Of a DNA stretch of 62,223 bases, positions 1 through 58,761 are shown one piece after another. The notes beneath the pieces are model-generated. The model made no database searches and was not told the origin of the DNA. It was given only the letters and a program-made list of their open reading frames with translations. This DNA is from a virus, in the IMG/VR virus record IMGVR_UViG_3300009507_002699, positions 1 to 62,223 of that record. The stretch is one strand, 5' to 3'. Numbering within the stretch: the first letter of the stretch is position 1; each line of letters begins with the position of its first letter. Position numbers and translations under genes: made by a program.

Positions 1-377
1 CTAACATTAATAATACCATTATAGTATTCATCTGTTTCAAGCACACGCCTATCAAACTGTTCTCTTGCCTCTATGTAGGACATTTCGCCCCTACCTTTAC
101 ATAGGTATAATATTTCTCTTGTAAACTTGTCTTCGCCTAGTTGTGCAACATCTGCGTTTAGTCTATCACTGGATCCCCAGTAATCACGCCAGTCGCTTTC
201 TTTAGTGCCGCGTCTTTTATTTTTCTTGCCTTTGAGTGGTGGCTTAGTAGTTTTAAATTTTGCTAGTTTTTTGCCTATGTATTTTTGGCCTGTAGTGGTA
301 TTGGTAATAAGATAAACAAAGCCTTCGTACTCATCTGGTATTTCATCTATTGTTTTTCCGTCATAAGTCCACTGCAT
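1..377 (-). CDS. GIY-YIG family endonuclease, Seg-like (partial, runs off window)
   Basis: Translating the minus strand from the ATG at 377 gives an open frame of at least 125 codons that runs off the left edge. Near the N-terminus it has the GIY-YIG core as FVYLITN...QKYIGKK (residues about 20-37). This is followed by a Lys/Arg-rich stretch and a DWRDYWGSS segment. The pattern is that of the small Seg-like GIY-YIG nucleases common in T4-type phages, where they act as free-standing homing endonucleases or related DNA nickases. It lies 21 nt downstream of the small gene ending at 399, so it is probably the last visible member of the minus-strand operon. The ribosome binding site is weak (AGGTAAGT). 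The C-terminus, including the usual catalytic Glu region, is partly beyond the window, so activity cannot be judged. Confidence 0.8.
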   Translation of the reverse strand, partial: MQWTYDGKTIDEIPDEYEGFVYLITNTTTGQKYIGKKLAKFKTTKPPLKGKKNKRRGTKESDWRDYWGSSDRLNADVAQLGEDKFTREILYLCKGRGEMSYIEAREQFDRRVLETDEYYNGIINV

Positions 378-398: not shown

Positions 399-593
399 TT
401 ATTTGTCTGCCTCTATTTTGGTTTTGAACTTGTTATTAATCTCATCCATACGTAATTTACTCAATTTACGTATTTCTCTGAGCCATTTCCGGCTTGCTCT
501 GTGGGTTCTGTACGATACACGGTTTTCAAAAGTTTCATTTGCTTTGAAATACTCCATATATGCTTTTGTTAATAGATCGTGCGTATCATCCAT
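399..593 (-). CDS. small basic conserved hypothetical protein (64 aa)
   Basis: A short, highly charged, probably all-helical protein of 64 residues with many Lys/Arg (for example RASRKWLREIRKLSK). It starts inside the end of the SufE-like gene: the ATG at 593 overlaps the TGA at 586-588, so the two are translationally coupled. Small proteins of this flavour occur in marine T4-like phages and are sometimes annotated as histone H1/Hc1-like because of the basic repeats. I recognise the resemblance but no domain strongly enough to assign a role. Coupling to its neighbours and the absence of a better frame on either strand are the reasons for calling it real. Confidence 0.65.
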   Translation of the reverse strand: MDDTHDLLTKAYMEYFKANETFENRVSYRTHRASRKWLREIRKLSKLRMDEINNKFKTKIEADK

Positions 594-990
594 GTTTTGC
601 TATACCTATGATTCTCTCAATTAAACTACCAAATCCTACTTGTCTTTGCATTGTTAGTAATTCTCTTATACCTAATGGTTTAAAACTGTCTAAAGTTAAG
701 TGTGCTATTGAACTTTTGTGTTCTCCGTTCACTAGATCAACAATAACTTTAGCAGTTCCTTTTGTAATCCAAGCATCACCGTCGTGTTTGTATTCTACAG
801 TACCGTCTTTGTTCTGTTTTCCAGTCACCCATAAATTACTTGCACATCCTCTTATTTTATTTTCTTCAATTTTGTCCTTTTCATTCAAAGGTTCAACTTC
901 TCTTGCTAGATCAACCAAGTACTGTAGCCTATCATGTCCTTGTAACATAGCAAGTTCATCACCACGTGCTTTGATTTTATCTAAAATCAT
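586..990 (-). CDS. sufE: SufE-like cysteine desulfuration / sulfur-acceptor protein
   Basis: A 134-residue protein, the size of bacterial SufE (about 138 aa). SufE accepts persulfide sulfur from the cysteine desulfurase SufS and passes it to the Fe-S scaffold. Visible family features are IRGCASNLWV with the presumed catalytic Cys49, a following glycine/aspartate-rich beta segment, KGTAKVIVDLVNG, and the C-terminal helix pattern LGIRELLTMQRQVGFGSLIERI. The start ATG at 988-990 overlaps the gp46 stop codon, so it is co-transcribed and coupled with gp46/gp47. No SufS, SufB/C/D or IscU homologue is in this window, so it would have to work with the host desulfurase. Its presence in a genome with eleven radical SAM (4Fe-4S) enzymes is notable. 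Family assignment is firm; the link to the radical SAM genes is inference. Confidence 0.88.
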   Translation of the reverse strand: MILDKIKARGDELAMLQGHDRLQYLVDLAREVEPLNEKDKIEENKIRGCASNLWVTGKQNKDGTVEYKHDGDAWITKGTAKVIVDLVNGEHKSSIAHLTLDSFKPLGIRELLTMQRQVGFGSLIERIIGIAKHG

Positions 991-2762
991 TAATCTACAA
1001 TCTCTATGTCATTTTCATAACTAGTAAAGCCATTTTCTTTTACAACTTTCATTAAATGATTAACTCTACCAATTAATTCGTCTTTGTGTGAGATAAGGAA
1101 AACATTTTTATGTCGTTCTCTACCCATCTTTTTAAGAACTGCTAATGCTCCTTCAACTCCTGCTGTGTCCATACCACTATCAATCAACTCATCAATAAAC
1201 AACAAGTTGATGTTTTGATATAAACTTTCCCAAACATCTCTAAATGCAAAACTCATGCCAAGGATAAGTCTGTTGCGTTCACCCCTTGACAAGTTATCAA
1301 AGTCTAAGTCTTGACCTAGTTGTGTAATTTCAACATTTAAGTCATTCATAAACACAACTTGATGTGGCAATCCTAGTTTATCTAAGTAATATGTAAGTCT
1401 GTTGTTTAAGTATGCTAAGTTTTGATCGATAATCTTTTTACGAATAAAACTATCCTTGTTAGTTAATAGTTTTAACAAGAACTCTTGATGGTCTTTAAAA
1501 TTTGTTAGGTCATTAATAGCAGACCAATCAACTTCTTGCATAGCAGTATTGTTTAATTCATCAATTTGTTGTTGATAAGGATCAATTTCTGCTTTTTTAT
1601 TTTCAAGTGCTGTCTTAAGACTATCAACGTTTTGTCTATGCTCGTATGCTTCTTTTGCTGTTTCGTAATATGTTGTAGGTTTGCCATTGATATCACCAAT
1701 ATCTTCAAGTCCTTTTGTAACATCATCTACTTTTTTAGCAATCTCTGATCGATAGTCAATTGCTTCATCTAGTTCTTTTTCTTTACGTGCTTCGAGTTCT
1801 GCTTTTTTATCTGCATGTAGTTCCTGTCCGCAAGTATAACATGTAGCATCTTCAAGATTTGTAATATCTTTAGTTGCTTTCTCTACAGACTTCTCTGCAC
1901 GTACTAATGCTGGTTCCAAAGTACTAAGTTCTTTTTTAAGAGCCAAAATAGCATTGTTGTGTTCATTCCAATTTTGTAATTTTTCGTGTGCATCTAATTC
2001 AACATTAACATCTAAGTGTTCTAATTCATCAATTGCACTAGTTAATTTGTCTACGTCTTGTTGCTTTTTAGAAAGCCAAGCACGTTGAGTACCCTGCAAG
2101 TTTGTAATAGTATCTTCAATTTTACTATTTGAACTTTGTATTGCTTCAATCTTTAACGTTTCTTGTGTAATAGTATCTTTAGTTTGACGTACTTGATCTT
2201 TTAGTGCATCGGCTTTTTCGCTAAGGATAGTAATACCTAATAACTGTTCAATAATAGCACGTTGATCGTTTTGTCTCATACTTAGAAACGGTTCGGTATA
2301 GGTATTTAGAGCAACAACGTGTTTGAACATATCATGACTCATACCTAACAATGTGTTTATTGCTTCTTGAGTTTTGCGACTGTCACCTTGCGACTCGTCT
2401 ACCTGCTCTTGTTCTTGATTATTAATGTAAAACTTTAGTACATTAGGCGAACGACCACGTTCAATACGATAGTCAATTCCATCCTTTTCAAAATCAAGAG
2501 AAACCAACATACCTTTGCTGTTGGTCTTATTAATTAAGTTATTGCGTTTGATGTTTGTTAACGCTACGCCATACAATGCATAACTTAGAGCATTAATGAT
2601 AGTAGTTTTACCTGTACCATTTCTTGATCCGTTATCATCGCCACCTTGATCTAAGTTTTCACCTAGTACAAGTGTTAATTGTTCTTTGTTAAAGTCAACA
2701 GCCTGAGTTTGGTTGCCCACACTCATAAAGTTTTTTACGGTTAGGTCTTTAATACGTATCAT
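990..2762 (-). CDS. 46: recombination endonuclease subunit gp46 (SbcC/Rad50-like ATPase)
   Basis: A 590-residue SMC-like ATPase, close to T4 gp46 in length. The Walker A motif is GSRNGTGKTT (about residues 45-54). A long coiled-coil region (about 180-450) is broken by a zinc-hook CYTC at Cys308/Cys311. The C-terminus carries the ABC signature LSRGERNR and a Walker B segment LLFIDELIDSG followed by ISHKDE. With gp47 it forms the Mre11/Rad50-type nuclease that resects DNA ends in recombination-dependent replication and contributes to host DNA degradation. The gene overlaps gp47 by 4 nt (2759-2762), and its stop overlaps the SufE-like start. Expression probably comes from the sigma70-type promoter upstream of gp47. 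Confidence 0.95.
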   Translation of the reverse strand: MIRIKDLTVKNFMSVGNQTQAVDFNKEQLTLVLGENLDQGGDDNGSRNGTGKTTIINALSYALYGVALTNIKRNNLINKTNSKGMLVSLDFEKDGIDYRIERGRSPNVLKFYINNQEQEQVDESQGDSRKTQEAINTLLGMSHDMFKHVVALNTYTEPFLSMRQNDQRAIIEQLLGITILSEKADALKDQVRQTKDTITQETLKIEAIQSSNSKIEDTITNLQGTQRAWLSKKQQDVDKLTSAIDELEHLDVNVELDAHEKLQNWNEHNNAILALKKELSTLEPALVRAEKSVEKATKDITNLEDATCYTCGQELHADKKAELEARKEKELDEAIDYRSEIAKKVDDVTKGLEDIGDINGKPTTYYETAKEAYEHRQNVDSLKTALENKKAEIDPYQQQIDELNNTAMQEVDWSAINDLTNFKDHQEFLLKLLTNKDSFIRKKIIDQNLAYLNNRLTYYLDKLGLPHQVVFMNDLNVEITQLGQDLDFDNLSRGERNRLILGMSFAFRDVWESLYQNINLLFIDELIDSGMDTAGVEGALAVLKKMGRERHKNVFLISHKDELIGRVNHLMKVVKENGFTSYENDIEIVD

Positions 2763-3769
2763 AGTTCGTTATAGATGTCCAATAGCATTTTCTTGTTAAA
2801 GTTATCTGAGTCGATTACAGTAATTTCTTTAGATACAATTTCGTCAACACTTTCAAATGTTGAAATATCTAAGTCTGTACTAATTTCTTCGACTTGTTTT
2901 TGCGGGATTAATGTAATCTCTCTACAACCGTGTTGTGAGATATACGTTTCTTTAATAAATTGTGCTTCTTCATAACTAATTGGAACATCAATAGTAACAC
3001 GTAGATACATATTACTTTTAATAATGTCTTGATTAGGGTCAAGAAGTTTGCTAAGTGTGGTTGTTCTGTACTTAGGACAATCTTCCCAGTTTAGGTATTC
3101 AGGCTCTTTGTTGTTTTCTCTGTCAAGTATCATCATTCCTCTTGCATCATCCCATGCATCTGCATAGTTGTGAGGAAATGCATTACCTAAGTAATGTACT
3201 TTGCCTTGTTTTTGTCGTTTATGAAAATGACCACTAAACACATATTCTTGGTGTTCAAAGTGTTCTGCTCGTAGTTCTCCATGATCTGGCATCTGTACCA
3301 TTGCATTCATGTAAAAACTTGGAAGTTCAAAATGACCAAACATGTATTTGCTTTTAATGTCTTTAATTTTACGCCATTCGTCGCCTACTAACCAAGGAAT
3401 CAGTGCAACATCTTCTTCTTGATATATTTCGTCAATGAATGTAATACCCGGAATGTATGTAGCAAACGCAGTTGAGTTTACATCACGCTTATCTTTGTAA
3501 TATAAATCATGGTTACCGTCAAAAAAGTAAAACTTTTCAAATGAACTACCTAATTTCTCCATACAACGTATTGTTGCATCCATGGTTGTAAGATTAAGAC
3601 TGTTTCTATTATGATGCCAGTCGCCACAAAAAATTCCTGTTTCGCATCCATTGGCTTTTGCTTGTGCAATATACCAATCTATGAAACGTTCACAATCATC
3701 GTTATGTACTTTACTATTGCCTTTTAAGCCAAGATGAATATCAGTAAAGACTGCCGCTTTCTTAAACAA
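2759..3769 (-). CDS. 47: recombination endonuclease subunit gp47 (SbcD/Mre11-like)
   Basis: A 336-residue calcineurin-like metallophosphoesterase. The metal-binding blocks are in order: FTDIHLG (Asp10, His12), FCGDWHHNR (Asp50), DGNHD (Asn86, His87) and SGHFHKRQ (His181, His183). It is the nuclease partner of gp46, and their reading frames overlap by 4 nt. The start is a TTG at 3769, chosen because the product begins right at the first beta strand and an AAGGA ribosome binding site sits about 7 nt upstream. No in-frame ATG gives a better fit. A perfect TTGACA-17-TATAAT promoter lies 28-56 nt upstream, implying early/middle expression by host RNA polymerase. Confidence 0.95.
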   Translation of the reverse strand: MFKKAAVFTDIHLGLKGNSKVHNDDCERFIDWYIAQAKANGCETGIFCGDWHHNRNSLNLTTMDATIRCMEKLGSSFEKFYFFDGNHDLYYKDKRDVNSTAFATYIPGITFIDEIYQEEDVALIPWLVGDEWRKIKDIKSKYMFGHFELPSFYMNAMVQMPDHGELRAEHFEHQEYVFSGHFHKRQKQGKVHYLGNAFPHNYADAWDDARGMMILDRENNKEPEYLNWEDCPKYRTTTLSKLLDPNQDIIKSNMYLRVTIDVPISYEEAQFIKETYISQHGCREITLIPQKQVEEISTDLDISTFESVDEIVSKEITVIDSDNFNKKMLLDIYNEL

Positions 3770-3836: not shown

Positions 3837-4667
3837 TTATTTTTTAGCATTAAGTTCTTCTTGTCTTTTCTGTGATGCTTCCCATTCTCCAGCATGTTGT
3901 CTAGTATAACTTGGATTCATATTATTCATTTCTAAAATATCGTCTCTAATATTTTGATTACGCTTTTCTAGGTTAATAACACGTACAAATGAGTTTGTAA
4001 CCGCCGCTGTATAGTATGCAAATGGATTTTGTGACTTAGATTCGTCAAATTGTAGTCCAATTTGTGCTAATTGTAGTATTGCTTGTCCGCGCATTTCGTC
4101 ATTGTAGGTGTATCCACGTACATTACCGCGTGTTGCATATCTATCACATAACTTCATCCACATCATAGCAAGTTTATTAGTTGCTTTACCGTGTGATTTG
4201 CTAAATCCGCCATTTTCCATGCCACCTTCCCAATGACTTTTACCTACACATACTAATTCACCGTCATCATTAAACTTAAAGTGCTGAAATGGTGGAAAAT
4301 TTAACTTTACTCTAGTATCTGCTACTGTTTTTGGGTTCTTTTTACGTCCAGGCTCTTCAGGAATATGATCAAATGTCATAATTCTAAAAATTAATTCTTC
4401 TTTTGTAATTTTTCTATAGTCTACTTCACATTCGGCTTGTTTTATCTTTTCACCTGCCGCTTTTCTAGTCTCAAATGCTAATTGACTTTGTTTTTTTGCC
4501 TTATTTCGCTTTGCTTCTGCTATAGTGCGTATGTTGATTTTGTCAATATCGGTTAAAATTATGTCAAAATTAGCATACTCGTCGTCCATATAACTACAAA
4601 ATGTACTTTTGGACTTGTGTATCTCTTTTAAGATATCTTTGTTGTTTAAGTAATTTACTTTTCTCAT
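3837..4667 (-). CDS. 55: late-transcription sigma factor gp55
   Basis: A 276-residue protein whose C-terminal half resembles T4-type gp55, the sigma factor that directs host RNA polymerase to TATAAATA late promoters. The relevant stretch is about residues 180-260: a helical region with NDEMRGQAILQLAQIG, FDESKSQNPFAYYTAAV, then SFVRVINLEKRNQNIRDD, corresponding to the sigma region 2-like core. It is longer than T4 gp55 (185 aa) because of a charged N-terminal extension (about 1-130) that I cannot assign. TGGAG lies 6-7 nt before the ATG. A perfect sigma70-type promoter precedes it, consistent with gp55 being made before late transcription begins. T4-like late elements upstream of the structural genes in this window are its expected targets. 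Confidence 0.85.
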   Translation of the reverse strand: MRKVNYLNNKDILKEIHKSKSTFCSYMDDEYANFDIILTDIDKINIRTIAEAKRNKAKKQSQLAFETRKAAGEKIKQAECEVDYRKITKEELIFRIMTFDHIPEEPGRKKNPKTVADTRVKLNFPPFQHFKFNDDGELVCVGKSHWEGGMENGGFSKSHGKATNKLAMMWMKLCDRYATRGNVRGYTYNDEMRGQAILQLAQIGLQFDESKSQNPFAYYTAAVTNSFVRVINLEKRNQNIRDDILEMNNMNPSYTRQHAGEWEASQKRQEELNAKK

Positions 4668-45588: not shown

Positions 45589-45799
45589 ACTAACATTGAG
45601 GCAGTTGCAAACTGAAAGTGCTAGAGCATTAAGCACTATGGAAGCAACTAATAATAACATATATCAGTTTAACAAACAAGCACATCATAACAGTCAAAAT
45701 TGGTATGTTGCTGTAATTGATTGGTACGTAAATCAATATGGAGATTTACCTAGCCGTGCAGGTCCCGGCAAGGATATTAAATTGGTATACGATGTATAG
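45575..45799 (+). CDS. small conserved hypothetical protein (74 aa)
   Basis: A 74-residue protein from a TTG start at 45575, overlapping the end of the large repeat protein by 14 nt; GAGG about 10 nt upstream supports the start. It is helical at the N-terminus (LTLRQLQTESARALSTMEA) and has HHNSQNWYVAVIDWYVNQYG and a Gly/Pro-rich end. It lies immediately before the first radical SAM gene, whose ATG at 45792 is inside its last codons. A precursor-peptide role is conceivable from position alone. However, it lacks Cys and any core-like tail, so an ordinary small phage protein is more likely. Confidence 0.6.
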   Translation: MDISKLTLRQLQTESARALSTMEATNNNIYQFNKQAHHNSQNWYVAVIDWYVNQYGDLPSRAGPGKDIKLVYDV

Positions 45800-46874
45800 A
45801 TACGAAGACATAAGAGAAGTACATTTAGAAGTTACACAGAAATGCCAAGCGGCATGTCCTATGTGCGATCGTAATATGAATGGCGGCGCTGATAATCCGC
45901 ATATTACAAATGCTGAACTAAGTTTAGCAGATGCAAAACGTATGTTTAGTCCTGACTTTATTAAGCAATTAAATGTAATGTACATGTGTGGTAACTTGGG
46001 TGATCCTATTGTTGCAAAAGATACACTAGAAATATTTGAATATTTTAGAGAACACAATGATAAAATGTGGCTTAGTATGAATACAAATGCTGGAGCAAAA
46101 GATATCTACTGGTGGGCGAAACTTGCAGAAGTTATAGGGCGCAGAGGCGCAGTAATTTTTAGTGTTGACGGACTACGAGATACTAATCATCTATATAGAC
46201 AAAATGTAGTATGGGATAATGTAGAAAGAAATATGCAAGCGTTTATTGAAGCAGGCGGTAGAGCCCGATGGGACTTCTTAATTTTTGCACACAATGAACA
46301 TCAAGTTGAAGAAGCAGAAGCACTTGCTAATCAATGGGGGTGTGAAAAGTTTATTAAGAAAAAATCAGGTAGATTTATTACAAGTGATATTAAACCTAAA
46401 ACATCTCATCAAGCAGTAAACCGCAAAGGTGCAGAAACACAAAATTTAGCACAGCCTAAAGATGAAAAGAATAAAAATCTAGCATTACTAAAACAAAAAG
46501 AGATTGAAAAGTCTTATGGTAGTATGAAAGAGTATTTAGATAAGTGTTCAATAAATTGTAAAGTTGCAAAGCAAGGAAGTATCTTTGTAACAGCAGAAGG
46601 ACTTTTAATGCCATGTTGTTGGACTGCTGGACGTATGTACAAATGGTGGCATGAAGATCCGCGTGTAGAACAAGTATGGGATCATATCGATAATGCTGGT
46701 GGAAAGCAAGGCATAAGTATTATTGACAACGATATAAAATACGTAGTTAATGGAAGATTGATAGATAGTATTACTTCAAGTTGGCAAAAAGATAGTATTG
46801 CTAACGGTAAACTTGGTGTCTGCGCTCAAAAGTGTGGTAGTGAGTTTGATCCTTATGCGGAGCAGTTTAAATAA
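45792..46874 (+). CDS. radical SAM/SPASM-like protein, family A member 1
   Basis: A 360-residue radical SAM enzyme. Its AdoMet-cluster motif is CQAACPMC (Cys18, Cys22, Cys25). The family A signature follows: MCGNLGDPIV in place of GGEP, then SVDGLRDTNHLYRQNV and FAHNEHQVEE. The C-terminus has a Cys-rich auxiliary-cluster region (CSIN CKVA, LMPCCW, CAQKCG), consistent with a SPASM/twitch-type second Fe-S site. The ATG at 45792 is preferred to one at 45738 because paralogues start at the same distance before the cluster. These enzymes use a 5'-deoxyadenosyl radical to modify peptides, sugars or small molecules; the substrate is unknown. It abuts the next paralogue with no gap. Confidence 0.9.
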   Translation: MYRYEDIREVHLEVTQKCQAACPMCDRNMNGGADNPHITNAELSLADAKRMFSPDFIKQLNVMYMCGNLGDPIVAKDTLEIFEYFREHNDKMWLSMNTNAGAKDIYWWAKLAEVIGRRGAVIFSVDGLRDTNHLYRQNVVWDNVERNMQAFIEAGGRARWDFLIFAHNEHQVEEAEALANQWGCEKFIKKKSGRFITSDIKPKTSHQAVNRKGAETQNLAQPKDEKNKNLALLKQKEIEKSYGSMKEYLDKCSINCKVAKQGSIFVTAEGLLMPCCWTAGRMYKWWHEDPRVEQVWDHIDNAGGKQGISIIDNDIKYVVNGRLIDSITSSWQKDSIANGKLGVCAQKCGSEFDPYAEQFK

Positions 46875-47963
46875 ATGGATATTACACAGTTAAAAAAAGT
46901 AGAGTTAGAAATTACAAGTAATTGTAATGCGGCATGTCCAGGGTGTGCTAGAACAATAGCAGTTGCTAACGGTTCACTTGAGCCCCAAGGTGAAGATTTT
47001 ACACTTGATGATTTAAAAAGAATGTTTCCTCCTGGAAATTATACTGGTGTTGAATTTAAGTTCTGTGGAGTATTAGGTGACCCTGCAATACATCCGCAGT
47101 TTGCTGATATGTTAGAATACCTTTTAGAAAATGAAGGTATGTGTAGTATTAGTACTAATGGTGCTGTTGGCACAGCAGATATGTGGCGTAGATTAGGAGC
47201 ATTGTGCAAAAAATATCAAAAAAGATTTCATTTACACTGGTGTATAGACGGACACAAAGAAACTAATCATATCTATAGAGTAAACACAGTATGGAAGGTT
47301 CTTGAAAGAAATATGAATGCTTTTGTTGAAACTGTAGGCGAGTATACATATCGTGCAAAATGGGTGTATATTGTTTTTGATCACAATGAGCATGAAGTTG
47401 ACGCGGCTAGACAACACGCTGAACGTTTAGGATTTAATTTTGCAACTCGCACAGGAATGCGTAATAGTTTTCATCAATGGACTGCTCAAATTAAAAAGAA
47501 AGATCATGAAAAGAAAAAAGTTGTAACAACAACAAAGGTTATTACTACTACCGGCAAAAAAGAACACAGTAAGGTAGAACAAGTAAAAGAACTTGATAAG
47601 TTTATTGCTAACGAAAATAAAACAAAAGAAGAAACATTTAAAATTGTAAATTCAATACAATGCAAATATGTACATGAAGCAGAAATTTTTATAAGTGCTG
47701 ATCAAACCATGTGGCCTTGTTGCTTTCTTGCAGATTGGGGCAGAAAGAATAATGATAATATATTAGATAAACTTGCTGAATATGGTACTGGTTGGAATAG
47801 TCTTAAAGACAAAAGTGTTACTGAGATTATGCAACATCCTTGGTTTGAAAAAATTCTAGCAGATAGTTGGGATCCAAGTCATCCAAAACATTTAAAAAGA
47901 TGTATTAGAACTTGTGCGTATAACAAAGCCTATCATAACGAATTAATAGACGAGACAAAATGA
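46875..47963 (+). CDS. radical SAM/SPASM-like protein, family A member 2
   Basis: A 362-residue paralogue of the preceding gene. CNAACPGC (Cys17, Cys21, Cys24) binds the radical SAM cluster; FCGVLGDPAIHP, CIDGHKETNHIYRVNTVW and IVFDHNEHEVDAARQ follow. A Lys/Thr-rich linker near 205-235 (KKKVVTTTKVITTTGKK) separates the core from a Cys-rich end (IQCKYVHEAEI, MWPCCFLADW, LKRCIRTCAY) likely to hold an auxiliary Fe-S cluster. The start is immediately after the stop of member 1. It shares an ATGA overlap with the next gene. It clearly arose by duplication within the cluster and has since diverged. Confidence 0.9.
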   Translation: MDITQLKKVELEITSNCNAACPGCARTIAVANGSLEPQGEDFTLDDLKRMFPPGNYTGVEFKFCGVLGDPAIHPQFADMLEYLLENEGMCSISTNGAVGTADMWRRLGALCKKYQKRFHLHWCIDGHKETNHIYRVNTVWKVLERNMNAFVETVGEYTYRAKWVYIVFDHNEHEVDAARQHAERLGFNFATRTGMRNSFHQWTAQIKKKDHEKKKVVTTTKVITTTGKKEHSKVEQVKELDKFIANENKTKEETFKIVNSIQCKYVHEAEIFISADQTMWPCCFLADWGRKNNDNILDKLAEYGTGWNSLKDKSVTEIMQHPWFEKILADSWDPSHPKHLKRCIRTCAYNKAYHNELIDETK

Positions 47964-48916
47964 GTTGGTCTAGCGAAACATTAGAATGGATAGACATTGA
48001 ACTAACTAGTTTTTGTAATATCAAATGCAAAGGCTGTTTTCGTGTACTGTCAGATTACAAAGATGACATACTTAATAAAACATATCTTGACTTAGATACT
48101 ATAAAAGAAAAGTTCCAAAAAGATATGTTTCCAAATATGAAGATTATTAATTTTTGCGGTAGTGTAGACGAGCCATGTAGTCATCCTGAGTTTCATGAAA
48201 TTATTAAACACTTTGCTAGTTGGGGATGTCATATTAATGTTGCTACTAATGGAAGTTTACGCACTACAAGTTGGTGGGAAAAACTAGCAAAAGAATTAAC
48301 ATGTAGTCATAGAGTGACTTGGGGTATAGACGGAAGTGATGAACTATCAGAAGTATACAGAGAAGGTTCAAGTTTTAAAAAAGTACAACAAAATTATAGA
48401 GCATTTATTGCCGCCGGCGGACAAAGTGTTTGGCAATTTATTAGTTTTGAACATAACGAGCATCAATTAGAAACAGCAAAGCAAATGGCCAAAGACGAGG
48501 GCTTTAGAGACTTCAAAACTATTATTAGTCATCGTAAAGATACTAAAACTATTAAGCATAAAAAAGCAAAAGCAGATCCTAATCCTGGAGAACGTGCATG
48601 TATCAGTTGTAAGTATGCAAATCAAAAACGTATTTTTGTAAATCATATGGGTAATGTAATTCCTTGTTGTCATTTGAATAGTAAAATGTTAGAATTTCCT
48701 GTAAGTGGTAAACACAAAGATAGATTTGAAGATATACTTGTTGAAAATGATTATATGAATGATATCAATCTAAAAAATGTTACATTAGATCAAGCAATGA
48801 ATAGCAAAGTGTGGCAAAGAATAAAAGATAGTTGGACTGATGATGTGCGTATACCTAAATGCGAAAGCACCTGTGCGGAAAAAATACGAGATAAATTTCT
48901 TAAGGAGAAGTTATGA
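47960..48916 (+). CDS. radical SAM/SPASM-like protein, family A member 3
   Basis: A 318-residue radical SAM protein, the shortest of family A. The cluster motif is CNIKCKGC (Cys19, Cys23, Cys26). FCGSVDEPCSHPEFHEIIKH, GIDGSDELSEVYREGSSFKK and FISFEHNEHQLETAKQ mark the family. The C-terminus has CISCKYANQKRIFVNHMG, VIPCCHLN and CESTCAEK for a second cluster. It begins with an ATGA overlap and ends the same way into the PP-loop gene, which has a strong AAGGAG ribosome binding site. Likely acts with its paralogues on related substrates or successive positions. Confidence 0.9.
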   Translation: MSWSSETLEWIDIELTSFCNIKCKGCFRVLSDYKDDILNKTYLDLDTIKEKFQKDMFPNMKIINFCGSVDEPCSHPEFHEIIKHFASWGCHINVATNGSLRTTSWWEKLAKELTCSHRVTWGIDGSDELSEVYREGSSFKKVQQNYRAFIAAGGQSVWQFISFEHNEHQLETAKQMAKDEGFRDFKTIISHRKDTKTIKHKKAKADPNPGERACISCKYANQKRIFVNHMGNVIPCCHLNSKMLEFPVSGKHKDRFEDILVENDYMNDINLKNVTLDQAMNSKVWQRIKDSWTDDVRIPKCESTCAEKIRDKFLKEKL

Positions 48917-49572
48917 TTGTAAAAAACTCCCAGCAAGATATTATTATAGAAGAAGATGAAACAGTTAAAACTATAGGACTAAAAATTTCTGGTGGCGCCG
49001 ATAGTGCTATTGTTGCCTATATGTTATCAAAGTTTGTTGTAGAGGAACGTCCTCTTATTAAGATTTTGCCTATTACAACTACACTTGAAGAAAAACCATA
49101 TCAATTAAAATATGCCAAGCGTGTGGTAGAATTTTTAAAAAACAAGTTTGGCAATATATTTTTAGAACATCAAACTAATCATGCAGAGAACAGCACAGTA
49201 TATGTTTCAAAACAAGGTGAGTTAGTACAAGATTTAAGAACTACATACGATCTGAAAATTTTATATAGTGGTATTACTGCTAACCCACCTAAAGAAATAT
49301 ACAAACAATGGTTACCACACACAGGTCCTGTAGATAATAGAGATGGAAAAATATTTCCTACAATACGAGGAACTTCAAGGTTACCTTTAGTAAATATTGA
49401 TAAAAAAGGTGTTGCAGAACTTTATAATACACTAGGAGTTATGGATACATTATTTCCAATAACTCGTAGTTGTGAAGCATTAGCAAAAGATGAAGAGTAC
49501 CATATTGAAAAACATTGCGAAACATGTTGGTGGTGTCGAGAACGGTACTACGGATTTGGAAGATATAAATGA
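48913..49572 (+). CDS. QueC-like PP-loop ATP pyrophosphatase with zinc site (219 aa)
   Basis: A 219-residue N-type ATP pyrophosphatase. The PP-loop is SGGADS (residues 26-31) within IGLKISGGADSAIVAY. The C-terminus has Cys187, Cys202, Cys205 and Cys208 in a CETCWWCRER context. This has the layout of the zinc site of QueC, the enzyme that makes 7-cyano-7-deazaguanine by ATP-dependent amide/nitrile formation, but with a longer Cys187-Cys202 interval. Such enzymes adenylate a carboxylate or carbonyl for attack by ammonia or sulfur. No QueD, QueE or FolE homologue is in the window, so it probably activates another substrate for the radical SAM pathway. Coupled by ATGA overlaps on both sides. Confidence 0.83.
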   Translation: MIVKNSQQDIIIEEDETVKTIGLKISGGADSAIVAYMLSKFVVEERPLIKILPITTTLEEKPYQLKYAKRVVEFLKNKFGNIFLEHQTNHAENSTVYVSKQGELVQDLRTTYDLKILYSGITANPPKEIYKQWLPHTGPVDNRDGKIFPTIRGTSRLPLVNIDKKGVAELYNTLGVMDTLFPITRSCEALAKDEEYHIEKHCETCWWCRERYYGFGRYK

Positions 49573-50609
49573 GTTGGCCAGCCAGTATAACCCAAATCAA
49601 AAAACTACAAATGGAAATAAGCAATTATTGTAATGCTAGATGTCCCGCTTGTGCTAGAGAAAAAAGCATAACTAACGATAATAAAAAGCATATTGGAATA
49701 AATGATACTTACGTAAGTTTAGAACAGTTTAAAAATTGGCTAGGCAACGACAGTTGGGATAGTTTGCGTTTAATTGATTTTTGTGGCAATTATGATGAAC
49801 CTACAACGAATCCAGACTTACTTGAAATCATAGAATGGATATTTACTTCTAAATTATTTAATGAGAATTTACAAGTTAACATTGCAACAAATGGCGGAAC
49901 ACGAGATAAAAAGTTTTGGTTAGAACTAGGAAAATTAAGTTCTGCTTACAAATTTACAAATACAGAGTATGATTATCTAAGTAGAATAAATGTCATTTGG
50001 GGCATAGATGGACTAGAAGACACAAATCATTTATATCGTATAAATGTAGACTGGAATAAACTACAAGAAAATTTTCGTACATACATATCAGCAGGTGGTA
50101 GAGCAAGTTGGCAATTCATATATTTTAAACATAATGAACATCAAGATGAGTTAGCAAAACAACGAAGTATTGACGAAGGGTTTGAACGTATAAAATTTAG
50201 AGGTACAAAATCTAGAGAACATAAAGTTGTAACACCAGGCACAGGCAAATACGAACTTGATACACAAAAAACTGTAAAAAAAATTGTGTGCAAAGCATTG
50301 CTTAGACCAAATTATCGTGGATTAGACTCAGGTCTTTATGTTACTGTTAAAGGACAAGTTCTTCCGTGTTGTTGGTGGGGAACTGAAGTACATCTAAATG
50401 ATCTTGACAAAAGTTACAATCTAAGTTATAATATAGATAACATAAATTTAAATAGTGGAAATAGTTTCCAGGAGATTCTAGACTCGCCTTGGTATAGTAA
50501 TCTACACGATACAATACAAACAGAAATATTTGATAAGTGTGTACACCATTGTAAAGACAATATTATAAGCACAATCAATAATCAGATGAACACAGGAACC
50601 TTAAAATAA
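49569..50609 (+). CDS. radical SAM/SPASM-like protein, family A member 4
   Basis: A 346-residue radical SAM protein. CNARCPAC (Cys21, Cys25, Cys28) is the cluster motif. IDFCGNYDEPTTNPDLLEII, GIDGLEDTNHLYRINVDWNK and FIYFKHNEHQDELAKQR repeat the family A signatures. An IVCKALLRPNYRGLDSGLY stretch, LPCCWWGTEV and CVHHCKDN supply a C-terminal Cys set for an auxiliary cluster. Its ATG overlaps the PP-loop stop, so it is separated from members 1-3 only by that gene. Eleven bases follow before the first family B gene. That gap shows no promoter and only a poor ribosome binding site. Confidence 0.9.
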   Translation: MSWPASITQIKKLQMEISNYCNARCPACAREKSITNDNKKHIGINDTYVSLEQFKNWLGNDSWDSLRLIDFCGNYDEPTTNPDLLEIIEWIFTSKLFNENLQVNIATNGGTRDKKFWLELGKLSSAYKFTNTEYDYLSRINVIWGIDGLEDTNHLYRINVDWNKLQENFRTYISAGGRASWQFIYFKHNEHQDELAKQRSIDEGFERIKFRGTKSREHKVVTPGTGKYELDTQKTVKKIVCKALLRPNYRGLDSGLYVTVKGQVLPCCWWGTEVHLNDLDKSYNLSYNIDNINLNSGNSFQEILDSPWYSNLHDTIQTEIFDKCVHHCKDNIISTINNQMNTGTLK

Positions 50610-50620
50610 GTAGTTATATA

Positions 50621-52036
50621 ATGACAGATAAAGCAAATAAATACCCCTCAGAAACGTTCTGCTTATTGCCTTGGGTACATCTAAGTACCCGTCCTGACGG
50701 TAGTATGCGAGTATGTTGTACAGCAAACGCAAGTAGCGTAGGTCCTACTAATGACAAAGAGCATGGCGGACAAGTTGGCATTTTAAAAGACGAACAAGGA
50801 AGACCTAACAACTTAAATGTTAGTGATTTTGAAACAGCATGGAATAGTACCTATATGCGTAATGTGCGTAAACAAATGCTTAACGGAGAACAACCTCCTA
50901 GTTGTATTAAGTGCTACAAAGAAGAAGCCGCAGGACATAATTCAAAGCGTATGTGGGAAACACACTATTGGAGCCAGCGTGTTGATCTAGATAAAATTAT
51001 TGCAGACACAAAAGCAGACGGCAGTGTTCCTCCGCAGTTAGCATATATTGATTTACGTTTTGGTACTAAGTGTCAACTTGCTTGTGTTATGTGTAGTCCA
51101 CATGATTCAAGTGGATGGATCAAAGACTACAAAGCAATTTTTCCAGCAGTACAGGATGAAAGTCTTAAAGAAACAATGCAATGGAAAGATAAAGGAAGTT
51201 TTAACGGCAGTAGTTACAATTGGCACAAACAAAATCCTACATTTTGGACACAGTTTTATGAACAGATGCCTAGTATGCAACAAATTTATTTTGCAGGCGG
51301 TGAAAGTCTTATTATTGAAGAACACTACGAAATACTTGAACATGCAATTAAAATGGGTTATGCTAAAGATTTAGAACTACGTTATAATTCAAATGGTGTT
51401 GAATGGCGTGAAGACCTGTTTGACTTATGGAAAGAATTTAAATTAGTACGTTTTCATTATTCAATAGACAGCATTAAAGAAATGAATGATTATATTCGTT
51501 ATCCTAGTACATGGAGTAGACAAGAAGAAGTATTCCACATACTTGATAATGACACACCTAACAACACAGAAGTTACAGTTGCATGTGCAGTGCAGGCTCT
51601 GAACATTTATTACTTACCAGACTTTATACAATGGAAATTAGAACAAAACTTTAAGAAAATTAATATGTGGCCATTTGGCGCAGGTGCTATTAACTATCAC
51701 TTTGTATACCATCCCCCGCATCTTAATGTTAAAATTTTACCTAAATGGTTTAAAGAAAAGTGTCGAGAAAAATACGAAGCATGGTATCCGTGGTGGGAAG
51801 CAAATTGGGAAAAGGGTGTTCCAAGTTGGCACAAAGGCAAAGTTGATTATGATACATGGCGTAATGCTAGTTATGGTATTAGCAGATTAAATGGTATGCT
51901 ACAGTTTATGGAAAGCGAAGACTGGAGCAGACGTTTACCCGAAATGAAAGAATTTTTAGATCTTTGTGATAAGCAACGTGGCATTACGTTTGCAGAAACG
52001 TTTCCAGAGATGAAGGACATATTTAATGATATCTAA
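50621..52036 (+). CDS. N-terminal-twitch radical SAM protein, family B member 1 (471 aa)
   Basis: The first of five proteins with an N-terminal twitch-type Fe-S domain ahead of the radical SAM domain. Cys14 lies in CLLPWVHLSTRPDGSMRVCC, with Cys32/Cys33, then CIKC at 95/98, forming the probable auxiliary cluster. The core motif is CQLACVMC (Cys151, Cys155, Cys158), followed by YFAGGESLIIEEHYEILEH. The pattern matches the group named twitch domain-containing radical SAM protein (N_twi_rSAM). The C-terminal third is Trp-rich and longer than in its paralogues. The start at 50621 follows an 11-nt gap; no good ribosome binding site is visible, and the next gene overlaps its 3' end. Confidence 0.9.
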   Translation: MTDKANKYPSETFCLLPWVHLSTRPDGSMRVCCTANASSVGPTNDKEHGGQVGILKDEQGRPNNLNVSDFETAWNSTYMRNVRKQMLNGEQPPSCIKCYKEEAAGHNSKRMWETHYWSQRVDLDKIIADTKADGSVPPQLAYIDLRFGTKCQLACVMCSPHDSSGWIKDYKAIFPAVQDESLKETMQWKDKGSFNGSSYNWHKQNPTFWTQFYEQMPSMQQIYFAGGESLIIEEHYEILEHAIKMGYAKDLELRYNSNGVEWREDLFDLWKEFKLVRFHYSIDSIKEMNDYIRYPSTWSRQEEVFHILDNDTPNNTEVTVACAVQALNIYYLPDFIQWKLEQNFKKINMWPFGAGAINYHFVYHPPHLNVKILPKWFKEKCREKYEAWYPWWEANWEKGVPSWHKGKVDYDTWRNASYGISRLNGMLQFMESEDWSRRLPEMKEFLDLCDKQRGITFAETFPEMKDIFNDI

Positions 52037-53201
52037 GACGTATTGTCCATTGTTGTATATGCATCAATTCATTTCGTCAACAGGATATCCTACACCTTGT
52101 TGCCACGGATATGAAGAGGGAAAATCAGCATGGGAATTGGCAAAGTTTGAAAAGGGCATTACAACAGGTAGATACAATGTTATGCGTGAACAAATGAAGC
52201 ACGGTCATTGGCCTAGTTTTTGTAATAAGTGCAAAATTCAAGAAGAAAGAGGTACTATAAGTCATAGACAAATAGCACTTGAAAGGTTTGGATACACAGA
52301 AGAAGTAAAAATCAAATATCTTGACATTGCATATAGCAATAAATGTAATCTTGCATGTAGAATGTGTAAGCCATCAGATAGTGATAAGTTAGAAGAATTA
52401 TATAGAGGTCAAAAAGAACGTCCATCATGGATTGCCGGTAATTATAGAGATACTAATTATTATTCAGAAGAAAAAGTAGAATGGACTAAGCATCTTATTA
52501 AAGACGGACTTGAATTATTAAAAGTTACAGGTGGAGAGCCTACGGCTTGCAAATATTTTATGGGATTAGTAGAATGGATGATTGATAATAATTATGCTAG
52601 TAACATGGAATTACAACTTACAACTAATGGAACAAAGTTTAATAAACCATTAATTGAAAAACTATTAAAATTTAAGAAGGTAAAACTATTATTAAGTATA
52701 GACGGTACAGGAAAAGTATACGATTATATAAGGCATCATGCTTCATGGGAAAAAACTTACAGTAATCTTAAACTATTAACAGAAGAAACACAGTTTCAAT
52801 TACAAGTTGCATTAGTCGCATCTTTTTATAATGTTACAAATATTTTAAGTTTAATTGAAGAATGTAAAAAAATAGGAATAAGTGTATATACTGACCAAGA
52901 TTTAAAGCCTGAAAATTCTGAAATATCTCCACTTAATATCGATAGTAACATTAGAAATATATTGATTAAGCAAGCAGATATACTAGAAAAAGAGTACAAT
53001 TCTAAATCTATAGTAGATTATCATGCTAGACAGAGTGCAAAAGCATTACGTAATATTGCAACAAGTAATCCAGTAGAACCTCAGCGGAAACTTAGATTGC
53101 TACAAACGATACAAATACAAGATAAATTATACAAAACTAACTACAAAGATTTCCTACAAAAAGAACAAATAGAATATTTAGAAGGAGTACATAATGGATA
53201 A
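52026..53201 (+). CDS. N-terminal-twitch radical SAM protein, family B member 2 (391 aa)
   Basis: A 391-residue twitch-type radical SAM protein. The N-terminal domain has YCPLLYMHQ (Cys7), PCC (Cys25/26) and CNKC (Cys66/69). The radical SAM motif is CNLACRMC (Cys107, Cys111, Cys114), followed by LKVTGGEPTACKYF and LLLSIDGTGKVYDYIRHHAS. The ATG at 52026 overlaps the previous stop. The C-terminal part is Lys-rich and helical without a clear extra Cys cluster, so the auxiliary cluster is N-terminal. It resembles the genes at 57650 and 61226. Substrate unknown. Confidence 0.9.
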   Translation: MISKTYCPLLYMHQFISSTGYPTPCCHGYEEGKSAWELAKFEKGITTGRYNVMREQMKHGHWPSFCNKCKIQEERGTISHRQIALERFGYTEEVKIKYLDIAYSNKCNLACRMCKPSDSDKLEELYRGQKERPSWIAGNYRDTNYYSEEKVEWTKHLIKDGLELLKVTGGEPTACKYFMGLVEWMIDNNYASNMELQLTTNGTKFNKPLIEKLLKFKKVKLLLSIDGTGKVYDYIRHHASWEKTYSNLKLLTEETQFQLQVALVASFYNVTNILSLIEECKKIGISVYTDQDLKPENSEISPLNIDSNIRNILIKQADILEKEYNSKSIVDYHARQSAKALRNIATSNPVEPQRKLRLLQTIQIQDKLYKTNYKDFLQKEQIEYLEGVHNG

Positions 53202-55692
53202 TCCAAAGTCTAAATTACCTTGTCATTATGCACATGGTGGAGTAAACTTTAAAAATGGATTTGCTACTACTTGTCCAATTAGTTCTGCTCACTTAGTTGA
53301 ACTAGGAGAGTTTGGCGGAGTACCAAGTGAGTTTTGGAATAGTAAAGGATTTAGAGAATATAGACAACAACTAGATAGAGGTGAATGGCCAGAACATTGT
53401 CATCTTTGTCAAAGTGCTGAAAAGGAAGGAACTAAAAGTATGCGTCATGATTATGAAGCAGATCTAACACATTATGATCCTGCGACAGGAGAAGTTGATT
53501 TTAACGGACTAAAACATGTAGAAATGAGGTTTAGTAATAGTTGTAATATGGCATGTTTGCATTGTAGTGAAGTATACAGTAGTCAATGGGGTAGTAGATT
53601 AAAGGACTATACTCCAGATCAAGATGATTGGGATCATAATTTAGAGCAATTACTAAAAACACAGCATAGAGAAGGACCGGATGATAATAAACAAATTAGA
53701 TTATCAAAAGCAGATGCATTAGCCATTGCAGATGATCTTAATAAAAACTTTCCTAATATTCAAAAAATTGATTTTGCAGGCGGCGAAGTATTATACCAAA
53801 AGCAATTCTTTCCGGTACTAGAGCGTTTGGCTCAACATCCTAATGCTAAAAACTTATATATATTCTTCCATAGTAATTTTAATGCACCATTTGATGTAAA
53901 CACACTTAATGATTTACTTAAACCTTTTAGGCAGACAAAGATTAAAATTAGTGTTGATGCAGGAACAAATATTTATAGTTACTTTAGAGACGGTGACTGG
54001 GATGTCTTAAAAAATAATCTTGCTAAGTTTAAAGAGATTAATAAAACAACCTACCTTGATGCAGTGTGTACAACTAGCATTTATCAAATCCTTGACTTAA
54101 AAAATATACTAGTATCGTTGGCTAGTTTAGATGTAAACGAAATATCAATGAGTACTGTGTTTACACCGAGATATATTAACCCAGCAGTTGCATATAGAAT
54201 GTTTGGGCAGGCTGTAATAAGTGATATACACGAAGCCGCTGATGCTTTAATGAGTATAAAGAAGAAACGCATGGCATCATCTAATAAAGAAAATTATAGA
54301 TCTTATATGCCTGAGTATAATGATTATGCTGATATTAGCGGATGTCTTAGAGATTTAGAACATATTAGAACTTATATTTTAAATCATCCTACAAAACAAA
54401 GCGATGTACAAGCGTTTTTATCATATGCTAATAAGATGGATAAATTATGGAAACAAAACTTCAATGATGTATTTCCAAGATGGATACTTACAAAAGATTC
54501 GTTATTAAGAAATAACAATATTGATTATAGCGGAGAGTTTCCATATAATAAGTGTGATATAAACCAAGAAATTAAAGATGTTATAACAAAATCACAAGAA
54601 GAAGGCAATATAGTTAGACCTCATTACCAAAAACTTTTAACTATGCCAATGCCAGAAGATGTAAGAGATGTTGAAGAAAGGCAATTAAAAGATTGGGCTG
54701 AAGAAATTTCTCAAGCGATAAAAGTACTACGATGGCATATGGGTACATCAGGGAAAGAAGAAATTGATAAGAAATTAGAACACCTTGAACATATGAAAAC
54801 TCGTCCAGAGTATAATGGGTGGGTACGGTATGAAAACTATCTTGCACAATCAAGAATTGCTGTAAAGTCAATCGAAGAAGAATTTTCGAAATGGGAATTT
54901 AATAAAGAACGAGTTGTAAAACTTGCTTTACACACAGCAGGCTTTCAACATTTTACACACGATAATTTAAATATTCCTTTCAATCCAGACTGGAAAAAAA
55001 TTGCTGTAAATGTAAGTGGCGGAGCAGATAGTTGTTTATTAACTTTCCTACTTTGTAAACACATTGAAGAAAACAATTTAGATTGTAAAGTTGATATAAT
55101 TACACATCAACGTGTATGGACAGTTCGTCCATGGGCAGGTCCTGTAAGTGTAGAAGTTTATAATAAGTTAAAAGAAAGATATCCTAATATTATTGGTAAT
55201 AGATTAACAAACTATATACCGCCTGAACTAGAACATAGTACACTAGGTAATATTGTAGAAGATAGAAGTGGCGATCAAATTATAGTTCAAAGTTATAATG
55301 ATTTTATTGCCGCACAAAACGATTACAATGCAGTGTTTAATGCAACAACAAAAAATCCTAGTATGGAAACTCCTACAGAAGATAGAATGAGAAATAGAGA
55401 CCACCAAGCGTTTGGATTAAATGAGTTTGTTTGTTTATATTTTAATTATTGGCAATGTATGCCGTTTATTGCTACAGAAAAAGACTGGGTAATTAAACAG
55501 TATAAAGATTTAGATATACTAGACTTTTACACTACTACACGTAGTTGTGAAGGTGATGGTAGAGACGGAGGACCATTGCTTGGCAAAGACTACTGGTGGT
55601 ACAAATATAATATGGATCAGCCTGTAGAAACTTGTGGTAAGTGTTTTTGGTGCGTAGAAAGAAAATGGGCGGAAGATCAGAATGAGTTTTGA
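53194..55692 (+). CDS. radical SAM - QueC-like PP-loop fusion protein (832 aa), family B member 3
   Basis: An 832-residue two-enzyme fusion. The N-terminal half is a twitch-type radical SAM protein: CHYAHGGVNFKNGFATTCP (Cys10, Cys27), CHLC (Cys69/72), the AdoMet motif CNMACLHC (Cys117, Cys121, Cys124) and IDFAGGEVLYQKQ. A helical, Lys/Glu-rich linker (about 440-590) leads to an ATP pyrophosphatase domain with VSGGADS (PP-loop about 607-613). A C-terminal zinc-type Cys set follows: Cys785 in TTRSCEGDGRDGG, then CGKCFWC at 814/817/820. This resembles the stand-alone PP-loop gene at 48913. The fusion implies that ATP-dependent activation and radical chemistry act on the same intermediate. Strong AAGGAG before the ATG; coupled to neighbours by overlaps. 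Confidence 0.9.
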   Translation: MDNPKSKLPCHYAHGGVNFKNGFATTCPISSAHLVELGEFGGVPSEFWNSKGFREYRQQLDRGEWPEHCHLCQSAEKEGTKSMRHDYEADLTHYDPATGEVDFNGLKHVEMRFSNSCNMACLHCSEVYSSQWGSRLKDYTPDQDDWDHNLEQLLKTQHREGPDDNKQIRLSKADALAIADDLNKNFPNIQKIDFAGGEVLYQKQFFPVLERLAQHPNAKNLYIFFHSNFNAPFDVNTLNDLLKPFRQTKIKISVDAGTNIYSYFRDGDWDVLKNNLAKFKEINKTTYLDAVCTTSIYQILDLKNILVSLASLDVNEISMSTVFTPRYINPAVAYRMFGQAVISDIHEAADALMSIKKKRMASSNKENYRSYMPEYNDYADISGCLRDLEHIRTYILNHPTKQSDVQAFLSYANKMDKLWKQNFNDVFPRWILTKDSLLRNNNIDYSGEFPYNKCDINQEIKDVITKSQEEGNIVRPHYQKLLTMPMPEDVRDVEERQLKDWAEEISQAIKVLRWHMGTSGKEEIDKKLEHLEHMKTRPEYNGWVRYENYLAQSRIAVKSIEEEFSKWEFNKERVVKLALHTAGFQHFTHDNLNIPFNPDWKKIAVNVSGGADSCLLTFLLCKHIEENNLDCKVDIITHQRVWTVRPWAGPVSVEVYNKLKERYPNIIGNRLTNYIPPELEHSTLGNIVEDRSGDQIIVQSYNDFIAAQNDYNAVFNATTKNPSMETPTEDRMRNRDHQAFGLNEFVCLYFNYWQCMPFIATEKDWVIKQYKDLDILDFYTTTRSCEGDGRDGGPLLGKDYWWYKYNMDQPVETCGKCFWCVERKWAEDQNEF

Positions 55693-56860
55693 TACATTAG
55701 ATTTAAAAACAGGCAACGTATTCCAAGTAACTTGGGATTTAGGCAGACGATGTAATTATGATTGTTCATACTGTCCGGTAACACGCCACGACAACTTTAG
55801 TCCACATGCTACGCTAGACGAACTAAAAGCAAATACAGATTTCTTGTATGAGTATATTGATACGTATATGCAACATCGTTCATACAAGCGTACTAGCATT
55901 GGTTTCACTGGCGGTGAGCCTACAGTAAACCCAAACTTTATTCCTTTTATGCAATATTTAAAAAGTGAATACGAAACCAAGTATCAAAGCAGATGGAGTG
56001 CAAACTTTGCACTTACAAGTAACGGTGCTATGGGACAAAAAATGGCACAAAAAGTAATGGAGAATTTTGCTCACATTACAGTAAGTTATCACGCCGAAAG
56101 TAATGAAAAACTAAAAAAACAAGTACGTGATAGAATATTACAATTTCACAAGGATGGTCCTGCACACAAAACAACAATGAGTATTAATGTTATGTTTCAT
56201 GCAGAACATTTTGATGAATGTAAAGAATTATGCGAATGGCTGGACGGGCATGAAATAAAGTATGTTCCGAGAGTCATTGGTGAAGAGCCTGATAGTAAAC
56301 CTAGTTTTGCACACAAGTACAATGATGAACAATTACAGTACATGCGAGATTTTTGGAAAAACAAAAATGCTAAACTAAACACTAAAAAGAAAAAAGAAGA
56401 AGAAGTTACTAAAGTACTAAGTGCGGCAGGAGAAAAAACTAGCGAAAAGAAAAAACTAGGACTTGTTGAAGGTCGCCCATGTTGCGGTAGTAGAGAAATG
56501 TGCTTGTCAAATAAGGGCGATAGTCGCAATGCTACCTTTGTAGACTTGCGTGAGTTTAAAGGTTGGCAATGTAGTGTTAACTTTTTCTTTTTACATTTAG
56601 AACAACAAACTGATCAAGTGTTCCATCATCAAACTTGTCAAGCACGGTTTGACGGTACTAGAGGACCAATAGGTAAAATAAGTGAAGGTAAACAAATTGT
56701 TGCAGATTTAGTCAAAAAGTTAGAAACAGATACAATGCCAACTATTACTTGCCCTAAACATGTTTGTGGTTGCGGATTATGTGCGCCTAAAAGTAAATTC
56801 CCAGAAAATTACAAAGAAGTTATGAAGAATCATTTAGTTCGTCCAGAGGTACTAGCATAA
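55682..56860 (+). CDS. radical SAM protein with C-terminal Cys cluster, family C member 1 (392 aa)
   Basis: A 392-residue radical SAM enzyme without N-terminal twitch. CNYDCSYC (Cys24, Cys28, Cys31) lies right after VTWDLGRR, and GFTGGEPTVNP carries the GGEP motif. The C-terminus has SREMCLSNKG, then a terminal CPKHVCGCGLC set likely to bind one or more auxiliary clusters. A Lys-rich linker (about 240-260) joins the domains. It resembles the gene at 58767 (LGRxCNYxCSYC, GGEPT), making a separate two-member family. It starts 11 nt inside the preceding fusion gene. The terminal layout recalls enzymes that modify peptides or glycans, but no specific match was recognised. Confidence 0.9.
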   Translation: MSFDTLDLKTGNVFQVTWDLGRRCNYDCSYCPVTRHDNFSPHATLDELKANTDFLYEYIDTYMQHRSYKRTSIGFTGGEPTVNPNFIPFMQYLKSEYETKYQSRWSANFALTSNGAMGQKMAQKVMENFAHITVSYHAESNEKLKKQVRDRILQFHKDGPAHKTTMSINVMFHAEHFDECKELCEWLDGHEIKYVPRVIGEEPDSKPSFAHKYNDEQLQYMRDFWKNKNAKLNTKKKKEEEVTKVLSAAGEKTSEKKKLGLVEGRPCCGSREMCLSNKGDSRNATFVDLREFKGWQCSVNFFFLHLEQQTDQVFHHQTCQARFDGTRGPIGKISEGKQIVADLVKKLETDTMPTITCPKHVCGCGLCAPKSKFPENYKEVMKNHLVRPEVLA

Positions 56861-57648: not shown

Positions 57649-57649
57649 T

Positions 57650-58747: not shown

Positions 58748-58761
58748 AAGGGTGCTATAAT
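58733..58761 (+). promoter_or_regulatory. sigma70-type promoter within the radical SAM cluster
   Basis: TTGACA (58733-58738) and TATAAT (58756-58761) are separated by exactly 17 nt, a perfect consensus. The -10 box ends only 5 nt before the ATG at 58767. Transcription would therefore begin at or next to the start codon, giving a nearly leaderless message. This is the second sigma70-type start in the accessory block. Confidence 0.82.

Follow-up and report, generated by a model that had tools for sequence, protein, structure and literature searches.

The sufE locus and the phage that carries it

The window, i.e., the whole stretch of DNA analyzed here, is a 62-kb linear IMG/VR record (62,223 nucleotides). 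Near its left end, a SufE-family gene lies between a gp46-like recombination gene and a small conserved ORF, orf65, which is followed by a SegE-type GIY-YIG gene; the right end is occupied by a cluster of radical-SAM genes (Table 1). The start codon of sufE and the stop codon of gp46 share one base (TAATG), and the first 8 bases of orf65 are also the last 8 of sufE. An earlier reading made from the DNA letters alone (the sequence-only reading) had described sufE as coupled to gp46, and the one-base overlap makes translational coupling plausible. An ORF on the opposite strand at 560-1024 (+) was taken as a shadow of sufE. Profile searches for SufS, IscU, A-type and SufT genes were negative for the 62-kb window.

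Table 1. Features of the window, with coordinates, strand and the basis of each assignment
Feature	Position	Strand	Basis and remarks
SegE-type GIY-YIG endonuclease homolog, cut by window edge	1..377	(-)	Translation and homologs
orf65, small conserved ORF, 64 aa here	399..593	(-)	Downstream slot border; no Pfam family match
sufE, SufE-family sulfur acceptor, 134 aa	586..990	(-)	C49 and R116; profile, PDB-sequence and fold matches
gp46-like recombination endonuclease subunit (SbcC/Rad50 type)	990..2762	(-)	Upstream slot border; SbcC/Rad50 family matches; 48.8% identical to PA5oct recombination endonuclease subunit
gp47-like nuclease subunit (SbcD type)	2759..3769	(-)	SbcD match, 0.0017; same order in PA5oct
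Putative late-transcription sigma factor (gp55-like)	3837..4667	(-)	Position and order as in PA5oct and Atu_ph07, annotated there as such
Radical-SAM cluster, eleven PF04055 genes and a PP-loop gene	45738..62221	(+)	Radical_SAM profile matches
Starts of radical-SAM genes	45738, 46875, 47960, 49569, 50621, 52026, 53194, 55682, 57599, 58767, 61166	(+)	PF04055

The window belongs to a large, probably marine bacterial virus. The order late sigma factor-gp47-gp46 is common to the window and PA5oct, and window gp46, in addition to its similarity to the PA5oct protein, is 44 to 48% identical to its counterparts in Atu_ph07 and Phosso. The nearest relatives of the large baseplate protein are in SCTP-2, Atu_ph07 and PA5oct; in the comparison with PA5oct-like phages, the baseplate wedge protein is 37% identical. 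By gp46 and the baseplate protein, the group to which the window belongs is nearer to PA5oct and Atu_ph07 than to the pelagimyophages of PMC7029224. These comparisons suggest that the phage is distantly related to PA5oct (Arenbergviridae/PA5oct-like) and Atu_ph07 and probably forms a separate group; at the DNA level, no match of its structural region to phage isolates was found. The best explanation is that this is a large, lytic-type phage in which SufE is an auxiliary metabolic gene. The window also encodes a 1222-aa protein (41920-45588) in which a stretch of ~20 residues (NLHSLFRLLGDEYEDLRK...) recurs many times in near-identical form, flanked by a glycosyltransferase-like part and a C-terminal part.

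Close SufE homologs are carried by 83 retrieved IMG/VR loci and are absent from the isolates of the phage collection, where only five weak matches were obtained. Four entries that match SufE and are filed as phage (MW462191, OQ572403, OR845579 and AGRM01000002) resemble pieces of bacterial chromosomes; MW462191, for example, carries genes annotated as protease II and Tet(X4). When bacterial contigs were initially scanned for peptides specific to the window, no match was confirmed.

SufE family membership and conservation

Several lines of evidence place the window protein in the SufE family. First, it matches the Pfam SufE family PF02657 at E = 1.3e-27 and 96.4 bits, above the curated cut-off of 27. 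Second, PDB SufE sequences match it at 2e-12. Third, an AlphaFold2 model built with eleven viral homologs as input (mean pLDDT 89.4) has only SufE/CsdE chains as its top PDB fold matches (TM up to 0.80), with Salmonella SufE 3g0m as the closest fold (TM 0.78). The NCBIfam models for SufE (6.9e-16, 58.3 bits) and CsdE (6e-15, 55.5 bits) match below their equivalog cut-offs of 160 and 136, respectively. By these profile scores, the protein is a SufE-family member outside the E. coli-type SufE and CsdE equivalogs. It shares with E. coli SufE (1mzg, 8vbs) and CsdE (4lw4) the fold (TM 0.72-0.80), the GCxS cysteine loop, the equivalent of R119 and a similar length; unlike these proteins, with which it is ~22-26% identical, it has TMQRQVGF where they have TPSRSQGL, and its gene lies beside phage recombination genes in a window in which no desulfurase was found.

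In E. coli SufE, C51 is the acceptor of the persulfide and release depends on R119; these are the two universally conserved residues of the SufE fold, and both are required (PMC11408855). In the alignment, C49 of the window protein corresponds to C51 and R116 to R119, and both are invariant across 46 distinct viral SufE homologs. Moreover, the median dN/dS of viral SufE is ~0.12 (over pairs with dS of 0.05-1.2), indicating purifying selection. Together, the dN/dS and the invariant residues rule out a chance ORF or a decaying gene at this position, and the sequence-only claim of a SufE-like gene with an intact Cys49 is confirmed by profile, fold, alignment and homologs.

SufE is optional cargo of a slot between gp46 and orf65/segE

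A gp46 scan limited to its best 80 matches yielded 79 further close relatives, with gp46 proteins at 76-89% identity. In the DNA retrieved after gp46, none of these 79 has SufE, a few of the contigs ending soon after gp46; in 32 SufE-less records, SufE was also not found elsewhere. In most SufE-less relatives, the gene immediately after gp46 is the conserved 65-aa ORF, which precedes a SegE-type GIY-YIG gene; the SegE homolog in L126 matches PF19835 (SegE_GIY-YIG) at 7e-35. In SufE-positive phages, SufE is situated between gp46 and this pair, giving the synteny gp47-gp46-sufE-orf65. Among the 127 loci with a visible orf65, the slot is empty in 68, contains SufE in 49 and HemC and/or HemE without SufE in nine (the HemE gene belonging to the UROD family), and has an unidentified ORF in one. 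SufE is alone in 42 of the 49 occupied slots and is accompanied by glyA (serine hydroxymethyltransferase) in six and by a HemC-like gene in one. In three loci, a tryptophan-halogenase gene is found just after orf65.

Two loci that are otherwise near-identical in this region, L067 and L160, differ by one clean block of ~400 bp; this block comprises the SufE gene, and start/stop overlaps form its junctions. On the gp46 tree, well-supported branches force at least six changes of SufE state, counts that do not separate gains from losses and that could be inflated if gp46 recombines. In L009 and L054, the SufE type does not fit the gp46 relatives, and this disagreement between the SufE and gp46 trees points to exchange of SufE between phages. 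Thus, SufE is optional, mobile cargo of one fixed slot between gp46 and orf65/segE, and this slot provides a defined place for studying how phages swap metabolic cargo.

The presence of a SegE-type gene after orf65 in 111 of the 127 slots, together with the exchange of cargo, raises the idea that sufE is a selfish passenger, spread by the nearby SegE-like endonuclease without metabolic benefit. We consider this quite improbable: the dN/dS of 0.12 and the invariant catalytic residues argue against it, as does the narrow metabolic range of the cargo (SufE, HemC, HemE and GlyA), and the SegE homolog adjoins empty slots too. Among the titles and abstracts searched, nothing directly relevant to phage hemC or to homing-endonuclease-linked slots for auxiliary metabolic genes was found.

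Viral SufE at other loci and additional Fe-S assembly genes

Viral SufE of the same clade is also found away from gp46, at unrelated loci of other marine phages. It adjoins genes for IMP dehydrogenase/GMP reductase, Hsp20, ClpS and heme oxygenase in L025 and L055, lies near a DNA-polymerase-like gene (by reading of the translation) in L019 and L053, and precedes peptide deformylase in L073. In L074 (6859-12826), the genes around SufE are radical-SAM, FdxA ferredoxin, B12-binding-like radical-SAM and SufT-like genes; of all the contexts, only this one makes an Fe-S module with radical SAM plausible.

Three SufE-bearing contigs (G009, G010 and G030) encode IscU-type scaffolds (L176:1495-1878 and L177 for G009 and G010); that of G010 matches TIGR01999 at 1.7e-67, above the NCBIfam cut-off, and has the LPPVK motif. 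A further Fe-S assembly gene is present in 4 of 21 records with SufE and 0 of 22 without (Fisher P = 0.048), a weak test that is not phylogenetically independent because G009 and G010 represent one lineage. This co-occurrence points, weakly, to Fe-S work. A phage-encoded SufS or A-type carrier as the partner of SufE was dropped as a candidate: in the 43 records, PF01521 (A-type carrier) had no match, PF00266 had one weak match, in G023, and no convincing SufS was found.

SufE does not track the number of radical-SAM genes

All eleven radical-SAM proteins of the window match the Radical_SAM profile and contain CX3CX2C, in agreement with the number given in the sequence-only reading; two of them score above the cut-off of the twitch-domain family. 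The same reading had many of them probably carrying two or more 4Fe-4S clusters, a suggestion that the analysis does not confirm. A PP-loop ATPase gene (48913-49572) with matches to QueC and NAD synthase lies inside the cluster, and the 832-aa radical-SAM protein encoded at 53194-55692 shows a weak PP-loop match toward its C terminus. Judged by sequence, cofactor or modification chemistry is a possible function of these PP-loop genes.

The sequence-only reading had linked SufE to the Fe-S demand of this cluster. SufE and radical-SAM genes do occur together in the window and in G002, G015, G023 and G026, with G060 having a single radical-SAM gene, and L074 has SufE among radical-SAM, FdxA and SufT-like genes. 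However, in the 15 informative gp46-type records, which are incomplete contigs reaching at least 45 kb into the structural (cluster) side, the radical-SAM counts are 11, 10, 9, 8, 4 and 1 with SufE (n = 6) and 16, 15, 15, 10, 9, 8, 5, 4 and 1 without (n = 9). SufE and radical-SAM count are not associated (one-sided Mann-Whitney P = 0.76), also when at least 55 kb on that side is required (P = 0.84). Furthermore, Atu_ph07 and Phosso have four radical-SAM genes each and no SufE, the two loci are 45 kb apart in the window, and SufE changes state between the near-identical phages L067 and L160. With or without SufE, the radical-SAM cluster is widespread in the group, and the proposed link therefore fails on the refuting condition named in the sequence-only reading, a lack of statistical association with radical-SAM gene count: SufE presence does not track radical-SAM gene number, although 15 records may be too few to reveal a weak effect. 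We accordingly rate it as unlikely that SufE meets the demand of the phage's own cluster. In this group, phages rich in radical-SAM genes can do without SufE, and it would be misleading to describe the two as a single module. Radical-SAM cassettes are known from the host-recognition regions of pelagimyophages, where they vary between close relatives (PMC7029224); radical-SAM genes thus vary between close relatives in these marine myophages as well, whereas no suf or Fe-S gene is mentioned there.

Cellular relatives of viral SufE

Among 398 genomes of one phylum, one 1.21-Mb genome matched at 174 bits, and the rest of the matches listed were at 84 bits or less. In the order of this genome, SufE is present in 5 of 147 sampled genomes (G431, G474, G499, G565 and G577), the viral profile and Pfam agreeing; the other 142 lack SufE, and some of the 147 may be incomplete. 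Among those listed, the genomes are ~1.0-1.5 Mb in size. The five cellular SufE proteins form the sister clade of all viral copies (joint clade 100/100, viral clade 90/83) and share the GCASNLWV and QRQ motifs with the window protein. They are 52-55% identical to it and up to 63% identical to other viral copies, compared to at most 38% for other bacteria. Both a phage-embedded gene and a cellular sister group are thus seen, and transfer could have gone in either direction.

Unlike the viral copy, the five cellular genes are chromosomal. A degenerate SufU-like gene lies upstream of them, and at four of the five loci examined, suf genes are found a few kb away from SufE. In L219, SufE follows the degenerate SufU-like gene (TIGR01994, 3e-9), lies just upstream of murG and is ~3 kb from sufA-T-U-S-D-C-B; this operon, sufB-C-D-S-U-T-sufA, encodes a SufS matching TIGR01979 at 2e-156 and a SufU matching TIGR01994 at 5e-35. 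L220 has the gene order of L219, L221 and L223 have similar suf sets a few kb from SufE, and L222 has no suf operon within the 16 kb inspected. The second, degenerate SufU-like gene directly precedes SufE at L219:6141-6533 and L221:7188-7592, and the two are possibly a paired acceptor.

The suf gene order of these relatives equals that of Candidatus Pelagibacter ubique, i.e., sufB-C-D-S, NifU-like, paaD and hesB (SAR11_0739 to 0745; PMC2864753). The small genome, the ~30% GC content and the suf gene order suggest SAR11, and the order is probably SAR11. The NifU-like gene of the Pelagibacter operon, SAR11_0743, is named sufE in that report (PMC2864753); by its description, it is probably a SufU-type protein rather than a true SufE. 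This name may hide the near absence of true SufE, and counts of SAR11 sufE genes may mislead.

Altogether, the viral SufE proteins form a conserved lineage that is mobile and retains its catalytic residues, and their closest cellular counterparts are mostly encoded next to suf genes in bacteria with very small genomes. If bacteria of the sister clade are the hosts, the process affected would be Fe-S assembly in cells that rank among the most abundant in the ocean and that mostly seem to lack SufE.

Proposed role of viral SufE

We suggest, as the fairly probable reading, that viral SufE is a functional acceptor of persulfide, enhancing or safeguarding host SUF assembly, and that, as an optional, mobile auxiliary gene, it serves general Fe-S supply rather than the radical-SAM cluster. 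This role is favored by the family and fold, the invariant C49 and R116, the dN/dS, the sister SufE near suf genes and the viral Fe-S genes. SufE would be made together with the gp46/47 recombination nuclease and would dock on host SufS, C49 would take the persulfide sulfur, and R116 would let SufE leave the SufS complex. The sulfur would then be handed to host SufBCD, so that Fe-S clusters are still made during infection for the infected cell in general and not for the radical-SAM cluster in particular. Expression, the SufS partner, delivery to SufBCD, host identity and benefit are all inferred. Of the sequence-only interpretation, the part in which an intact, selected SufE may act with host SufS stands, and its radical-SAM cause does not.

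SufE reportedly stimulates SufS in cluster assembly during oxidative stress (PMC8940887), and SufS-SufE pairs adapted to higher oxygen have been described (PMC12803347). By analogy with these reports, protection of Fe-S assembly during infection would be the most likely benefit.

Several points count against this role. The protein scores below the NCBIfam equivalog cut-off for E. coli-type SufE, and the co-occurrence with further Fe-S assembly genes is weak. In the related order, a SufU-type acceptor is part of the SUF system and SufE is missing from 142 of 147 genomes, so that SufS of the host may be poorly matched to SufE. Where SufE is present in these genomes, the docking helix of SufS reads HSHD and lacks the specificity residue Y345, the tyrosine that marks E. 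coli SufS-SufE pairs (PMC11408855). A possible though doubtful variant is that the phage rewires the sulfur entry of a SufU-type SUF system, with a SufE adapted to such a SufS providing a second, perhaps more oxidant-resistant route during infection. If so, the gp46 slot would serve specifically for the exchange of genes linked to iron, heme and one-carbon cofactors (SufE, HemC, HemE and GlyA). The same setting would allow SufE to act as a decoy that binds host SufS and diverts or blocks sulfur, thereby weakening host Fe-S metabolism or a redox-triggered defense: SufE is missing from most genomes of this order, whose inspected suf loci encode SufU, with which SufE could compete. Yet both turnover residues are strictly kept, and a decoy would have no need of C49, which makes this reading very improbable.

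A sulfur relay for purposes other than Fe-S clusters, e.g., thiolation or a CsdE-like relay, also has to be weighed against the proposed support of host SUF assembly. PP-loop ATPase domains are used in some thiolation and nitrile-forming enzymes. The PP-loop gene of the radical-SAM cluster and the weak PP-loop match in the 832-aa protein would fit such a use, and CsdE models match the window protein nearly as well as SufE models do; nevertheless, the nearest cellular SufE genes adjoin suf genes and not csd or tRNA-modification genes, and we hold a non-Fe-S use to be improbable.

Relation to reported viral sufE genes and distribution

SufE is listed among the auxiliary genes of marine viruses from the ETNP oxygen minimum zone (PMC8940887). 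As in those viruses, the sufE gene described here is virus-borne without sufS, and the reading there is likewise support of host SUF; the accessible text of that report lists the gene and contains no lineage, slot, catalytic residues or radical-SAM test. Thus, viral sufE (PMC8940887) and radical-SAM cassettes in marine myophages (PMC7029224) are known, and, within the literature searched, the phylogenetic placement of viral SufE, the exchange slot and the negative radical-SAM result are new.

The SufE-positive gp46-type loci are unevenly distributed over datasets. IMG ids 3300020200-3300020480, which we take to be open-ocean samples, are the source of 29 of the 49 SufE-positive and 3 of the 79 SufE-negative loci, a comparison in which near-copies are not independent and the gp46 scan was limited to its best 80 matches. 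This concentration in one dataset series hints at a habitat effect and serves as a lead.
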